The notes beneath the pieces are model-generated. The model was not told the DNA's origin. It did no database searches and saw only the letters and a program-made list of their open reading frames with translations. From the NCBI RefSeq assembly GCF_017306545.1, contig NZ_JAFKID010000019.1:24913-88912 (forward strand): 64,000 nucleotides of DNA, read 5' to 3'. Shown in pieces: positions 44,621 to 49,793 of this stretch (position 1 is the first letter of the stretch; each line of letters opens with the position of its first letter). The translations under genes were made by a program, and so were the position numbers. The stretch is from Mesorhizobium sp. Lineage in GTDB: Bacteria > Pseudomonadota > Alphaproteobacteria > Rhizobiales > Rhizobiaceae.

Positions 44621-45274
44621 CTACTCCAGTTTCTCCAGATGAGCAAGCGTGACGTCCACCGTCATCTCGCCACCGAAGAGGTGGGTCAGCACACGCGCCG
44701 AGCGCCCGCGCCCATATCCCTCCAACACACCGTCGAAATCGGCATAGGGACCGACCTTGATACGCACACGCGAACCAACCACCAAACCGGTCGGCGTGTT
44801 ACGCTCGTCGAACGCGCCTGCCTGTGCCAAGTCCATGAATCCATTCATTTCCCGATTTCCAATCGGATACGGCTCATCACCCTTGCCGACGACGGCAACG
44901 ACGCCGTCGAAACGCAGCAGCCCAGCGAATGCCATGTCGCTCGGCACGATGTTGACGAACACCAGGCCGCGCAGAACCGGCTTGTGGACAACCTTGCCGC
45001 CACGCCCCCCGACACGACGCGCAGCCTGCACTTCCTTGACCGGAACCACCGCGTCCACACGCGAATCGGTCAGACTGGAGACAAGATCGACTTCGCCTCG
45101 AAAGCCGGAGCGCAGCGCGAACCACTGCCGCTCGCCCTCGACATCGAGGGACGCGGCCGCCAGCAACTTCGCCTCGATACGGCGCCGCTCAATCACCTTG
45201 TCCATCGCCGCATAGCAGCGCGTCAGGTCGATTTTTTCCGCTTCATTCAGCTGCTTCACATCGACCGCCATCAT
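44621..45274 (-). CDS. NusG-like transcription elongation/antitermination protein
   Basis: 217 residues. A NusG N-terminal-like domain (QWFALRSGFRGE, VHKPVLRGLVFVNI) and a C-terminal KOW-type domain (VVGSRVRIKVGPYADFDGVLEGY ... TVDVTLAHLEKLE) are visible; the first 45 residues are an extra helix. It lies immediately before the HNH and terminase genes, so it may be a dedicated antiterminator for the late operon. It overlaps the upstream gene end by 32 bases. Confidence 0.75.
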   Translation of the reverse strand: MMAVDVKQLNEAEKIDLTRCYAAMDKVIERRRIEAKLLAAASLDVEGERQWFALRSGFRGEVDLVSSLTDSRVDAVVPVKEVQAARRVGGRGGKVVHKPVLRGLVFVNIVPSDMAFAGLLRFDGVVAVVGKGDEPYPIGNREMNGFMDLAQAGAFDERNTPTGLVVGSRVRIKVGPYADFDGVLEGYGRGRSARVLTHLFGGEMTVDVTLAHLEKLE

Positions 45275-46433
45275 TTTCCGTTCCTCGCACCACTGTTTCG
45301 AATTCGCTCAACCGTTCCGGTCCGCCAACCGGGAAGAAAACCACAGGCTGCTTGCCCGGATCAGGCAACCACGGCCAACCCATGCGCTCGTGCAATCCGC
45401 GCCAGCTCGCATAGACGTCCGAACCGACAGGCACCGGCTCCATCAGCGGTTTCAGCCGCTCGGCACGTTCGAAACCGACGCTGATGCCCGCACGGTCCGC
45501 GGCGCGCTCATGGATGCGGTTGACAGCCGGCCAGCCATAGGTCGCCTGGCGTGTGAGCCTCGCCTGCCTGCCCGCCTCGTCGTCGCGGGCAAGCTGTTCG
45601 GCCAGGAAGGCGCTCGGCTTCGGCCCGTCGACCGGCACATGGGTCAGCAGCAATTCCATGCGAACGCCGCTCCACACCGGACCGAACACAGGCGCGTCGA
45701 CGAATGCGGGCTTGTCCTCGACCAGCTCCGGAAGCCCTTCCCAACGCCGTTCGGCGAGATACCGCGACAAGGCAGGAAGATAGTCCCGGCCGCTGGCCTT
45801 GTTCGCCGCGATCCATCGACCGATGGCAGCTTTCGCGGCGGTGCGCTGGTCCGGTGTCAGGGCAGACCATGCCGCGAATGCCTCGTCTCGCGATCCGGTC
45901 GAGCCGACCGGCCAGTCCCGCCAGGCCCGTTCGAATGCCCGTTCGACAGCTTTCCGATCTTCCGAGCCACGCGCCTGCGCCTCTCTCTCAATCGGTTCTG
46001 TTGGTGGTTCTACTGACGGTTCAGCCTTATAGGGGGGTGCGGGGGGATTGCTGTCATCTGCCGGTGGTTGTGCAGTCATCTGCCGGTGGCTGTGCCGTGA
46101 GATGCCGGTGGCACCACCGGCAGGATTTGCCGGTGGTTGACCGTTCCGCGCCGGCTGTTTCTCGCCATCCATGCAGAGGCGGATTTCGTCTGCCTGATAG
46201 GTTCCGCCGGCGTTGCGACGGCGCTCTACGACGATCAGGCCCGCGTCTTCGAGCTTGCGCTTCCAGTCGCGAATGGTCCGCTCCGCCATTTCCGTGTCGG
46301 ACATGAGGCGCGCATCGGACGGCCAGCACCGGCCGGTTTCGTCGGCATAATTCGCCAACGCATAGAGCAGCAGCTTGCCGCTGGCGCCGCCCGCCTCGAC
46401 CTTGGACACCCAAGCAGTTGCCTGCCAGCTCAC
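45243..46433 (-). CDS. Helix-turn-helix replication-type protein
   Basis: 396 residues from GTG 46433, which overlaps the stop of the previous gene (GTGA); an ATG at 46451 is possible. The N-terminal winged helix (KLLLYALANYADETGRCWPS; MAERTIRDWKRKLEDAGLI) is of the HTH_36 type found in phage replication initiators. A Pro/Ser-rich linker follows (about 100-150). The C-terminal part is unrecognised. Probably a phage replication (O-like) protein. Confidence 0.68.
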   Translation of the reverse strand: MSWQATAWVSKVEAGGASGKLLLYALANYADETGRCWPSDARLMSDTEMAERTIRDWKRKLEDAGLIVVERRRNAGGTYQADEIRLCMDGEKQPARNGQPPANPAGGATGISRHSHRQMTAQPPADDSNPPAPPYKAEPSVEPPTEPIEREAQARGSEDRKAVERAFERAWRDWPVGSTGSRDEAFAAWSALTPDQRTAAKAAIGRWIAANKASGRDYLPALSRYLAERRWEGLPELVEDKPAFVDAPVFGPVWSGVRMELLLTHVPVDGPKPSAFLAEQLARDDEAGRQARLTRQATYGWPAVNRIHERAADRAGISVGFERAERLKPLMEPVPVGSDVYASWRGLHERMGWPWLPDPGKQPVVFFPVGGPERLSEFETVVRGTENDGGRCEAAE

Positions 46434-46972
46434 CGCCGTGCCCTCCACCATGCGTCGAAATCGCGGCGCAGCGCCTTCCAGCGCTCCGCCGCCTGCCCGC
46501 CGTCGTTGAGTTCCGCTCGCGACGTGACGCCGAGCAAGGTGCGCACCTTCTGGGCAACGCGTTCGTCGGTCAGCGGCCGGTCAAGACCATGCCGCTCCTC
46601 GAGGAAGACGCGGAACGACGGCTCGTCGCACTTCATGGCGCACTCGGCGGCGAAGTTCTTCGGATCGGCAGGCTGCGGCGGATCGCCTCTGGGCGAGCGG
46701 TCTTCCTTCGGCTTGAGCCTGGCAATCGCGCGGTCAACGAGGCCGAGCAGAAACCGGACGTTGTCCGGCGCCTCCACCACGAAGGCGATTTCGTCGTCGG
46801 TCGCACCACAGTCGAAACGCAGCACCGGCGACAATTCGCCCATCGGCCCGAGCGCCTCGACAAAGCACCCGGCATCGGCCGGGTTGCCGTCGTGGACGCG
46901 CGCCCATGAGGCAGGCGCGATGGCCGCAAGCTGGTCACGAACGCGCGCGAGCCGGGCGGATTCGGAAATCAT
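46430..46972 (-). CDS. Prophage hypothetical protein
   Basis: 180 residues starting MISESARLARVRDQLAAIAPAS. Mixed alpha/beta N-terminus, Arg/Lys/Pro middle (RLKPKEDRSPRGDPPQPADP) and a helical C-terminus (LGVTSRAELNDG, RRDFDAWWRARR). Overlaps both neighbours by 4 bases. Function unknown. Confidence 0.6.
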   Translation of the reverse strand: MISESARLARVRDQLAAIAPASWARVHDGNPADAGCFVEALGPMGELSPVLRFDCGATDDEIAFVVEAPDNVRFLLGLVDRAIARLKPKEDRSPRGDPPQPADPKNFAAECAMKCDEPSFRVFLEERHGLDRPLTDERVAQKVRTLLGVTSRAELNDGGQAAERWKALRRDFDAWWRARR

Positions 46973-48510
46973 TCCGCCGCCTCCATCATCCGAACAAGGC
47001 GAGTTGCGCCGGCGGAGCCTCGACCGGCAAGGCGATGGCACAGAGTGCGGAACGCATGCGCGCCTTCCAGGCTGACAACGCCGTTGCCGAGCATGCGCAG
47101 CCGCTCGACGCGGGCGGCGTGAGGGCCAGCGAGGTCCACCCTGGCGGCCACCCCATCAGCCATTCGACGAACAGCGGGTTCAAGGTCCGGCGAATGTGCG
47201 AGGACTCGTCGCCAACCGTCGAGATCGGCCGGTCCGGGAGGGAAGACACCAAGGTCGAAGCCATCCCCATCGTCAGGTTGTAGCTGCGCGAATTCCCCGG
47301 CTGATGGCTCTCGCCGAAACTCAGCGATGTCGGCGTCGGCCACTGCTTGGCCTGCAATGTCAGCGTTCCATTCGGTCCCATCCTGTCGGCCGGCGACATT
47401 CGCTGCCGTCGAGCATGAAACGCTTCCGGCGACTCGTCGTTCTCGTTGGCGCGAGGCGTCATCCAGAGCGTGTTGACCTGTTGCGTCAGGCTCGTACCCG
47501 ACATCGCTGCGGTGATCGTCCCGCCGCGCTGACCGTCTCCCGCTGACGGCGTCGTCCAGAGCGCCGCGTCCCGGCTCAGGTTGTTGCCCTGCGTCGAATG
47601 GATGTCCGCTCCCGGACGCCTGCCGTCGTGCGCTGTCGGCGTCGACCACATCGACACCACGTCCTCCAGCCGCGCGCGAGGATCCGTAACGTTTTCCCGA
47701 AGCTGGCCGGCCATCCCGTCGCCGGTTCGCGGTGTCGGCCAGACCTTCGCTACCTCGTTCAGCGGCGCCCCCTTCGATCCTCGATCGTGAAGCTCGTCGT
47801 TGGCGCCCTTCCAGTCCCTTGCAGACGGCGTCGGCCACGCCTGCGCAACTTCCGCGAGATACAGAGGCACCGTGTTCTGTCCGGCATTCCGCTTCCGGAA
47901 AGCCGCGCATTTCGCCAAGGTCTCCTCGTCTCGCACGCGATTCATCGCATCCGGCGTCGGCCAATTCGTCATGTACGCCGAGGATGAAGAGGCGCTCGCG
48001 CTCATGGCTCGCGCCGACTTCCGCCGCCGTGAACAATCCGATCTCAACCTGGAAACCAAGCTTGCGAAGGTCTCGCCATACCCGCTCGGCTCCAGCGACT
48101 TCGTCAGCCCCCGCCGCAAGCATGCCGCCGACGTTCTCGATAAGCACCCACCAGACGCGCGACTGGACGACGATGCGCCGCGCGTCGGACCACAGGTCGC
48201 GCTCGTCGAGTTGCCCCTGCTTGCGTCCAGCGAGGCTATGCGGCTGGCACGGGATGCCGCCAACGAGGCCGTCCACGCATCCACGCCAGCGTCGGCCGTC
48301 GAATGTTCGGGCATCGCTCCACACAGGTGCCGGAGCCATGAAACCCTGTTCCATCGCTGAAACCAGGTGCGCGACGGCGAAGGCTTCCCTCTCCACCATG
48401 CAGACTGCGCGAGCGCATGGAACCGCCAGTTCGATTCCAAGATCAAGTCCGCCCCCCCCTGTGCAGATGGAGAGGATGTCGAGGGACCAGGGACGTGCAG
48501 CCACATTCAC
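46969..48510 (-). CDS. DNA cytosine-5 methyltransferase
   Basis: Methylates cytosine in DNA, probably protecting phage DNA. 513 residues from GTG 48510 (GTGA overlap). Motif I LDILSICTGGGGLDLG (10-25), catalytic motif IV GGIPCQPHS (Cys 88), motif VI IENVGG (125-130), motif VIII HERERLFILG (169-178), and motif X near the C-terminus RLRMLGNGVVSLEGAHAFRTL. The middle, about 185-420, is Arg/Gly/Ala/Asp-rich and repeats ADAD-like words (VADAV, LADTA, VADAD). The +1 frame over the same bases looks like the real target-recognition region, so the full product may need a frame change. Confidence 0.85.
   Translation of the reverse strand: MNVAARPWSLDILSICTGGGGLDLGIELAVPCARAVCMVEREAFAVAHLVSAMEQGFMAPAPVWSDARTFDGRRWRGCVDGLVGGIPCQPHSLAGRKQGQLDERDLWSDARRIVVQSRVWWVLIENVGGMLAAGADEVAGAERVWRDLRKLGFQVEIGLFTAAEVGASHERERLFILGVHDELADAGCDESRARRGDLGEMRGFPEAECRTEHGASVSRGSCAGVADAVCKGLEGRQRRASRSRIEGGAAERGSEGLADTANRRRDGRPASGKRYGSSRAAGGRGVDVVDADSARRQASGSGHPFDAGQQPEPGRGALDDAVSGRRSARRDDHRSDVGYEPDATGQHALDDASRQRERRVAGSVSCSTAANVAGRQDGTEWNADIAGQAVADADIAEFRREPSAGEFAQLQPDDGDGFDLGVFPPGPADLDGWRRVLAHSPDLEPAVRRMADGVAARVDLAGPHAARVERLRMLGNGVVSLEGAHAFRTLCHRLAGRGSAGATRLVRMMEAAE
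46986..47972 (-). CDS. Overlapping +1 frame of the methyltransferase, target-recognition-like
   Basis: This frame, open for 506 codons from 48506, is shadow-like up to about 47975, then reads as protein. It holds seven modules of the form W-P/S/T/M-T-P-x-A/T at 47963, 47837, 47741, 47648, 47558, 47465 and 47342, then LNPLFVEWLMGWPPGW near 47183-47135 and an end QLALFG. WPTPT modules and the NP-FVEWLMG-P-GWT ending are known from many phage cytosine methyltransferases. An ATG at 47972 could start it, though without a good ribosome site; a +1 shift from the upstream frame is the alternative. Confidence 0.5.
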   Translation of the reverse strand: MTNWPTPDAMNRVRDEETLAKCAAFRKRNAGQNTVPLYLAEVAQAWPTPSARDWKGANDELHDRGSKGAPLNEVAKVWPTPRTGDGMAGQLRENVTDPRARLEDVVSMWSTPTAHDGRRPGADIHSTQGNNLSRDAALWTTPSAGDGQRGGTITAAMSGTSLTQQVNTLWMTPRANENDESPEAFHARRQRMSPADRMGPNGTLTLQAKQWPTPTSLSFGESHQPGNSRSYNLTMGMASTLVSSLPDRPISTVGDESSHIRRTLNPLFVEWLMGWPPGWTSLALTPPASSGCACSATALSAWKARMRSALCAIALPVEAPPAQLALFG

Positions 48511-49070
48511 GCCCGCCCTCCCTTGTGCCAGACGCCGGCGGCGCGCGCGGCGTGAAGGATCGCCGAATGATCGCGATTGCCGAACAGCCGGCCGAGTTCC
48601 GGCAACGAGATGTCCGGCCGCGCGACATAGGCGGCCGCCATGGCTTCCCGGCGCGCCAGCACAACATGCCTGGCGTTGCGCTTGCCGAGCAGCGTGCGCA
48701 CGGAAATCCCATGCCGCTCGGCTGTCGTACGGATGATCTCCGCCACCAGCGGCATGGGCGCCGGCACCTCCGGCACATCGGCCACATCCTTGGCATAGAG
48801 CATCATCACCGCCCCGCCGACGATGGCTTCAGCCTGGGCGCGAGCATCGGCGAGCGCGATGGCGACGATCTCCATCGCCTCCGCCTTGGCCTCGGCGACG
48901 ATCCTGTCCGCTTCGGCGCGGATTTCGTCGAGCGCGGCGCCGCTGGCCCGCTGCAATTCCGTGGCCGACAAAGGCCGCGTCTGCTCTCGCTGGCGCGCTG
49001 CGAGCGCCGGGCTGCGCATGTCGAGACGCGGCAGGCCGCGATCCAGTTTCCGCAAGGCAGGCTCAGCCAT
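48507..49070 (-). CDS. Protein with DnaA-type C-terminal DNA-binding domain
   Basis: 187 residues from ATG 49070. The middle is a charged helix (AEADRIVAEAKAEAMEIVAIAL). The last 70 residues (AERHGISVRTLLGKRN, LARREAMAAAYV, LPELGRLFGNRDHSAILHA) match the DnaA-box-binding domain of DnaA. No AAA+ ATPase is present. It may bind the phage origin or act as a regulator. Confidence 0.75.
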   Translation of the reverse strand: MAEPALRKLDRGLPRLDMRSPALAARQREQTRPLSATELQRASGAALDEIRAEADRIVAEAKAEAMEIVAIALADARAQAEAIVGGAVMMLYAKDVADVPEVPAPMPLVAEIIRTTAERHGISVRTLLGKRNARHVVLARREAMAAAYVARPDISLPELGRLFGNRDHSAILHAARAAGVWHKGGRA

Positions 49071-49308
49071 CGACCCCGAGCCCCCGCAGTTCGTCGGCCA
49101 GATGCGCCGCGCGCATGTCCAGCGCCGTGCGCAGCGCACCCGCGATCTCTTTGGCGTAGCTGTCGGACGCGACGATCTCGCTGGCGCGCTCGCCGTCGCC
49201 GACGACGAAGTGCAGCCGCTCGCCGGCAGCGAGCCGTCCCGCCATGGCGCGGGTGGCGTCCAGTTGCGCAGCAAGCGCCTGCGCCCGTTTCAGATCGGAC
49301 GCCCGCAT
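49063..49308 (-). CDS. Small prophage protein
   Basis: 81 residues starting MRASDLKRAQALAAQLDATRAM, mostly helical, with a short strand (LHFVVGDGERAS) and a helical end. Overlaps the DnaA-domain gene by 8 bases and meets the cupin-like gene at one base. Unknown. Confidence 0.6.
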   Translation of the reverse strand: MRASDLKRAQALAAQLDATRAMAGRLAAGERLHFVVGDGERASEIVASDSYAKEIAGALRTALDMRAAHLADELRGLGVDG

Positions 49309-49793
49309 CACTCGAACTCCCCGCAGCCGCGCCCGATCTCGCCAGGCTTTTCCGGCTTGGTGAAGCGCTGCCACGGCACCCAGCCGAGACGGCAATGGAA
49401 ACCCCACGTCCGCAACACCGGCCCGGTGAGGAACAGCGTCCAGCAAGGTCCGTCGACCAGTTCGATACGGTGCGCCGCCGTGGCGCTGCGGAATTTCACC
49501 TGGCCGGCATGGCGCTCGGCACGGCGGCTGATGCCGCCGGCGTCGATGGTGTGTTCGACATACCGGCCGCGCAGCAGCACCGAGAGGTTCCACCACGGAT
49601 GATCATGCAGAGCGCGGTCGTCGTCGGAGCGGCGGAAGTGATGGAGATAGATGTTGAACCAGCGATTGCGCGGAATCAGCCACCAGCGCCGCATGTAAGG
49701 ATCGGCATCGCCGCCGATGATGACGTCGGGCGGACGCCGCTCCGAAAGCGCGACAAGACGCGGCGCCAGCCGCAGGATCAGCTTTGCGAGCAT
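49308..49793 (-). CDS. Cupin-like conserved phage protein
   Basis: 161 residues. A beta-barrel pattern with DDDRALHDHPWWNLSVLL and, later, AAHRIELVDGPCWTLFLTGP; the His residues (H-x-H and the late His) suit a cupin metal site. The ending RTWGFHCRLGWVPWQRFT is highly conserved in similar phage proteins. Activity unknown. Confidence 0.65.
   Translation of the reverse strand: MLAKLILRLAPRLVALSERRPPDVIIGGDADPYMRRWWLIPRNRWFNIYLHHFRRSDDDRALHDHPWWNLSVLLRGRYVEHTIDAGGISRRAERHAGQVKFRSATAAHRIELVDGPCWTLFLTGPVLRTWGFHCRLGWVPWQRFTKPEKPGEIGRGCGEFE

Follow-up and report, generated by a model that had tools for sequence, protein, structure and literature searches.

The window analysed here is a stretch of 64,000 nucleotides from Mesorhizobium sp. 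(contig NZ_JAFKID010000019.1, positions 24,913 to 88,912 of the forward strand), and the element in question is a cytosine-C5 (C5) methyltransferase gene on its reverse strand. Our analysis showed that this gene is open almost from end to end in two frames, A and B, of which B is the +1 frame of A (Table 1). Frame A matches PF00145 of Pfam over residues 11-183 (E 1.7e-24) and phrog_363 over residues 10-488, and a 328-amino-acid part of frame B matches phrog_27243 (1.1e-25) and phrog_1008 (1.4e-20). Both frames therefore resemble known phage protein families. We propose that the two frames may encode the two subunits of a single enzyme.

The original prediction for this locus, made from the letters alone, had described a GTG-started frame with methyltransferase motifs, overlapped over about 830 bases by a +1 frame with seven W-x-T-P modules and an NP-FVEWLMG ending, and had suggested searching each frame separately. 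The two frames are as described there, and the separate searches against protein families gave the matches above. The seven modules sit in B (coordinates 47963, 47837, 47741 and 47648, four of the seven, were confirmed by eye), as does the NP-FVEWLMG ending. The overlap, however, was underestimated and extends over the whole gene, about 1.5 kb.

Table 1. Positions of the two frames and their parts in the window.
Feature	Position	Strand	Description
Frame A, proposed large subunit, 513 amino acids	46969..48510	-	GTG 48510 to stop at 46969; C5 methyltransferase motifs I-VIII N-terminal, motif X near the C end, open non-conserved middle between
Frame B (+1 of A), proposed small subunit, 506 amino acids	46986..48506	-	ATG 48506; open throughout; start peptide, W-x-T-P modules, motif-IX-like end
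Ambiguous start GTGAATGTG	48502..48510	-	A begins at GTG 48510 (alternatively GTG 48504), B at ATG 48506
A-constrained block, motifs I-VIII	47973..48510	-	B open, its B-type substitutions confined to roughly the first 13 codons
W-x-T-P block	47270..47963	-	Constrained in B; A open and unconstrained (codon-position substitutions)
Motif-IX-like LNPLFVEWLMGWPPGWT in frame B	47133..47183	-	In B in 79/81 distinct loci
Motif X RLRMLGNGVV in frame A	47074..47103	-	In A in 70/81 distinct loci

The motif numbers I-X in A and B follow the C5 methyltransferase literature and were assigned by visual comparison.

Related loci and motif layout

The frame B query yielded the best 80 of 87 relatives in IMG/VR, 28 GTDB loci, and matches in 9 of the 297 genomes of the window's order, and the frame A query yielded three IMG/VR loci. 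Any match to the A catalytic part or to B was found in 132 loci and both parts in 117, and in 110 of these 117 B lies in the +1 frame of A. The remaining 22 of the 132 comprise 11 whose available sequence lacks the A catalytic part, 4 in which no B match reached the threshold (3 of them with the same layout by eye), and 7 in another phase. The 110 loci, which include the window and repeats of one contig, were selected by the +1 offset itself, and the unselected figure is 110/117. The loci come from Rhizobiales genomes, Synechococcus phages, and low-GC phage contigs, and a nested form was found in contigs related to an Arthrobacter phage gene.

Motif X was read in A in 98 of the 110 loci and the IX-like motif in B in 108. 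Among the 81 distinct loci to which these were reduced, the 70 with motif X in the same chain as motifs I-VIII include the window, and the IX-like motif was read in A in none. When 91 distinct loci were picked by B's IX motif alone, motif X was read in the A frame in 88 of them and never in B, and the third frame was open 400 nucleotides upstream in none. The in-frame arrangement of L039, L056, L057, and L061 initially passed for natural fusion, but the A catalytic part of these loci itself appears in two frames, and they were dropped as evidence. In L078 and L080 the blocks likewise stand in other phases.

Two Synechococcus phage records, L086 (PP438429.1) and L091 (OM868082.1), are identical over the 5333 bases compared and are annotated in different frames, one with B as a hypothetical protein and the other with A as a cytosine-specific DNA methyltransferase. 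Dual coding would explain why identical DNA has been annotated in this way. A C5 methyltransferase of another subgroup in Salmonella phage SEN5 (L088, 2017-3006) has a partly open +1 frame, with 4 stops over the full gene length, in which x-T-P occurs together with an NP-WLMG motif. A similar appearance was noted for L161, which comes from a genome of the same order as the window.

Selection on the two frames

Codon-position substitutions were compared between pairs of 71 nonredundant loci (L035, L044, L075, L088, L089, L090, incomplete N-terminal matches, and duplicates were left out); the loci are related, and pair counts in the substitution, ratio, layout, and junction comparisons are not independent. 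In the catalytic part,.198/.132/.352 substitutions per site were found at the first, second, and third codon positions of A (A1/A2/A3), which indicates A coding. In the middle they were.319/.166/.212, and.222/.053/.041 in the nine closest pairs; because A3 is the second codon position of B, the middle is read as B coding. The end, with.205/.096/.223, shows coding in both frames. At 47963-47270 of the window, 15 nucleotide-selected matches from 13 loci gave 137/50/30 substitutions at A1/A2/A3. A protein search with A's middle found 9 matching frames and one with B's middle found 36 (the window's own copies counted), and similar W-x-T-P modules occur at other positions in other loci. In the original prediction, related phages with just one of the two frames open, or a substitution signal for only one frame across 47963-47130, were to speak against two coding frames. 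Residue constraint in the middle was indeed seen in B only; A is nonetheless open there and its motif X lies downstream, so that both frames appear to be in use.

The openness of each frame was assessed by keeping the protein of the other frame fixed, shuffling its synonymous codons, and counting stops. With A fixed, B had 6 stops over the A catalytic part of 73 loci where 161 were expected, all 6 of them in two loci (L115 and L135), and the third frame had 317 where 369 were expected. As controls, 83 flanking genes had 505 stops versus 498 expected (519 versus 652 in the third frame) and 24 ordinary C5 methyltransferases had 104 versus 102. With B fixed, 235 A stops were expected over the overlaps of the same 71 loci, and A was significantly open (P below 0.05) in 49 of the 71 taken one by one. 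The overlap shuffle and the 39-partner sets used segments bounded by the stop of A itself, so that the absence of A stops in them carries no information; the motif-layout counts are to be used instead. Substitutions and stop depletion, together with the flanking-gene and C5-enzyme controls, indicate selection on both frames, as in an overprinted gene pair. They back true overprinting, one of the options given originally, and we regard dual coding of this locus, kept across the phage family, as nearly certain.

In the window overlap, 7.6 A stops were expected with B fixed (0 of 1000 shuffles open) and 2.0 B stops with A fixed (4.7% of shuffles open). Over the A catalytic part with A fixed, 1.6 B stops were expected and 11% of shuffles were open. 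The window by itself therefore supports B weakly, and the case comes from the relatives. Such window-only shuffles, and a guanine plus cytosine (GC) content of 0.66, would agree with A being the only protein and B an open shadow of a GC-rich gene. This is extremely improbable, because B stops are depleted family-wide, B-type substitutions occur, and members with a GC content of 0.47-0.55 share the layout; the substitution pattern already counts against it.

The start region

The TGA at 48509-48507 within the start site is the stop of an upstream open reading frame (ORF), 48507-49274, in frame B. Beside the A start, a B start peptide of the form M-(x)-W-x-(Y/F/H)-(V/I/L)-P, or of the MSWLFS type, was found in 91 of 97 loci (repeats included), and A codons 4-13 carried B-type substitutions (.433/.242/.235 at A1/A2/A3). 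Among 73 nonredundant loci, B starts at AUGUG in 33, at GUGUG in 3, and at other sites in 32, and 5 are without the peptide. An A start codon stands at -7, -4, +2, or +5 in all 68 peptide-bearing loci. It has been described, in the part of PMC9841429 available, that AUGUG and GUGUG sites can initiate two frames in E. coli, with rnpA-rpmH of Thermus as a precedent for a dual start. An internal start of B at 47972 had been offered in the original prediction. As the sole start it is disfavoured, since B is kept open upstream and has its start peptide beside the A start. The likelier start of B is 48506, 4 nucleotides past that of A; an additional internal start is still compatible with the data.

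Single-chain relatives and nested layouts

In eight single-chain relatives, motif IV, the x-T-P modules, IX, and X are all in one frame, and the x-T-P block lies between motif IV and motif IX, where the target-recognition part is expected. The IX-like motif precedes motif X by 20-21 residues in relatives with both in one frame. A further set comprised the best 80 of 205 relatives of gp78 of Arthrobacter phage DrYang, corresponding to 79 loci (L169-L247). Narrow motif patterns found IX in 12/79 and X with NP in 13/74 of these and were replaced by wider ones. Twenty-seven loci have a nested +1 frame with IX and X in A, 11 have IX and X in the +1 frame, 7 have another +1 layout, 19 are single-frame without a +1 partner, and 15 were unsorted. 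Across L169-L247, the x-T-P block was observed in frame, in a nested +1 frame, in a +1 frame that also has IX and X, or in an adjacent gene.

The 27 loci with B nested in +1 suggest that an internal start near 47972, giving a B of 328 amino acids, might apply in the window too. In 38 nested gp78-related stretches, the +1 frame upstream has ordinary stops, 69 versus 65 expected. The window's type, in contrast, keeps the upstream +1 frame open and has the conserved start peptide, which makes this explanation quite unlikely, although it would be compatible with two subunits.

Programmed frameshifting would give one chain instead, by a +1 shift after motif VIII into the W-x-T-P block and an optional return before motif X. 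The single-chain relatives show this block order in one frame, and in the same 27 of the 79 loci the block is in +1 while IX and X are back in A. However, frameshifting leaves both the openness of B over the A catalytic part and the B start peptide unexplained, it takes two shifts to include motif X, and no run of near-invariant bases was seen in the junction columns except where the conserved residues of A would account for it. We consider it unlikely, and the +1 frameshift suggested originally is not needed.

Enzyme motifs and structure models

Frame A has the PF00145 catalytic motifs I-VIII, with E40, C88, E125, N126, R171, and R173 among the invariant columns of 63 sequences. The A model spans M.HhaI to residue 324, and the helix after motif X has a predicted local distance difference test (pLDDT) score of 95-98. 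The target-recognition part and motif IX, in turn, were not found in the A chain: its middle is unconstrained and B has the IX-like motif. By itself, A is therefore an incomplete member of PF00145. At the level of sequence layout, the division is that of the two-polypeptide enzyme M.EcoHK31I, with motifs I-VIII and X in the first polypeptide and IX in the second. The assignment of motif IX is better backed by the relatives with IX and X in one frame than by the profile, and a profile comparison of B's middle with ordinary C5 methyltransferases gave nothing of note (E 0.83).

Frame B matched nothing in Pfam at E 1 and nothing in the PDB at E 10, and its assignment to a family of either database was dropped. 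This would fit an independent overprinted protein (accessory, anti-restriction, or mobile insertion) in place of a methyltransferase subunit, and so would the weak constraint on the N-terminal third of B and the out-of-frame HNH elements known within phage methylase genes (excerpt of PMC11855218). The HNH endonuclease domain expected of an out-of-frame insertion of the ShiLan type was not found in B by the Pfam search at E 1. An independent B is improbable because in the eight single-chain relatives the x-T-P block is flanked by motifs IV and IX within a single enzyme, the IX-like motif lies 20-21 residues ahead of X where one frame has both, and A's middle is not conserved.

Other features of the locus

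No DNA tandem repeats were reported inside the gene; the sole array within 46000-49500 is at 46049-46112, a 22-base repeat of 2.9 copies within the ORF 45243-46451. At 46969-46973, AATGA makes the A stop overlap an ATG in another frame, and the downstream ORF (in the frame of 46430-47041) may be translationally coupled. The window's genome has five further PF00145 match rows, on two other contigs.

A proposed two-subunit enzyme from one gene

As judged from the sequences, selection acts on both frames, in different blocks; the start peptide of B is conserved, A and B each have a share of the motifs, and there are single-chain relatives. The explanation we favour, with a probability of roughly 70%, is a two-subunit C5 methyltransferase encoded by a single gene that is overprinted over nearly its full length and has an ambiguous start. 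Ribosomes would initiate at either of two starts a few bases apart, at GTG 48510 or GTG 48504 for A and at ATG 48506 for B. A would be the large catalytic domain, with motifs I-VIII and, via a long disordered linker, the C-terminal motif X part. B would provide the parts missing from A, namely the modular W-x-T-P (recognition) block and motif IX. The two would assemble into a single enzyme whose specificity is set by the modules. Both frames are presumably translated in cells, A and B probably bind each other as a heterodimer, the W-x-T-P modules are predicted to read DNA, and the product would methylate DNA.

Several observations weigh against this explanation. With A fixed, B was significantly open over the overlap in only 19 of the 71 loci taken one by one (P below 0.05). 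The motif X pattern was read in B in 3 of the 81 distinct loci, and the blocks are in another phase in seven loci and also in L035. Past about 13 codons, the N-terminal third of B is without clear extra constraint, which is odd for a full-length protein. The ratio of position 3 to position 1 substitutions in the catalytic part was close to that of control genes, 1.81 versus 1.74 at 70-78% identity and 1.58 versus 1.55 below 70%; in the closer bins it was 2.03 versus 1.04 (78-86%, 7 control pairs) and 2.61 versus 4.35 (86-98%). Since these ratios are near the controls below 78% identity and differ in both directions above it, B appears to be open there yet largely unconstrained in sequence. When the short part of the window's middle that could be aligned was compared earlier with 39 partners, the rates were.261/.156/.254, with A1 about equal to A3; we take most of those columns to lie next to the C-terminal block. 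In the A model, residues 471-480, which make up most of motif X, have a mean pLDDT of only 74; the full B model (folded alone) is of low confidence with a mean of 51.6, and the end of B matches the motif IX profile weakly (E 0.31). Finally, the target-recognition part of M.EcoHK31I was predicted to be in the large subunit, as the available part of PMC3404938 has it, whereas the modular block is here in the small frame.

More broadly, we lean towards the view that this is a widespread phage gene, translated over its whole length in two frames that share a single ambiguous start. Its products would be complementary halves of an enzyme, each frame tolerating the coding region of the other half as filler. 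Across phages the recognition block would be in frame, in a nested +1 frame, in a full-length +1 frame, or in a neighbouring gene, which would let modules swap. It is rare for a long same-strand overlap to have two products that would serve a single enzyme, and the selection map seen here is clean and recurs across loci. The locus is a natural system in which to study how AUGUG sites initiate two frames. A further suggestion is that W-x-T-P repeats in phage proteins of unknown function may mark methyltransferase specificity subunits.

Comparison with known systems

The nearest known enzyme appears to be M.EcoHK31I, likened here by its described motif division. Its small subunit is read from another frame within the large-subunit gene. 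In the part of PMC3404938 available, M.EcoHK31I is a C5 methyltransferase of two polypeptides, the large subunit with motifs I-VIII and X and the small subunit with IX, and frames A and B divide the motifs in the same way. The same excerpt describes M.AquI, also a C5 methyltransferase divided over two polypeptides, whose second chain carries motifs IX-X along with half of the variable region; gp77/gp78 of Arthrobacter phage DrYang are closer to this layout than the window's locus is. M.BatI was considered as a parallel and set aside as an ordinary single-gene enzyme, as given in the excerpt of PMC8936443. Among the titles and abstracts listed from the open-licence literature, we found no description of such an overlap in phage methyltransferases.

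The rnpA-rpmH genes of Thermus and the AUGUG/GUGUG sites of E. coli resemble the present start in that two frames begin from one site, a few bases apart. In those systems, according to the available part of PMC9841429, one of the frames encodes a short peptide or is a small nested gene, whereas here the site would serve two frames of about 500 codons. In the phage methylase genes with an out-of-frame HNH element, an extra open frame is hidden while the host frame stays open, as here; that case, in the excerpt of PMC11855218, is a homing insertion, whereas B is without a Pfam match and has an enzyme-like motif. Compared with M.EcoHK31I, B starts beside the start of A and spans the gene, and this layout recurs in many phage loci.
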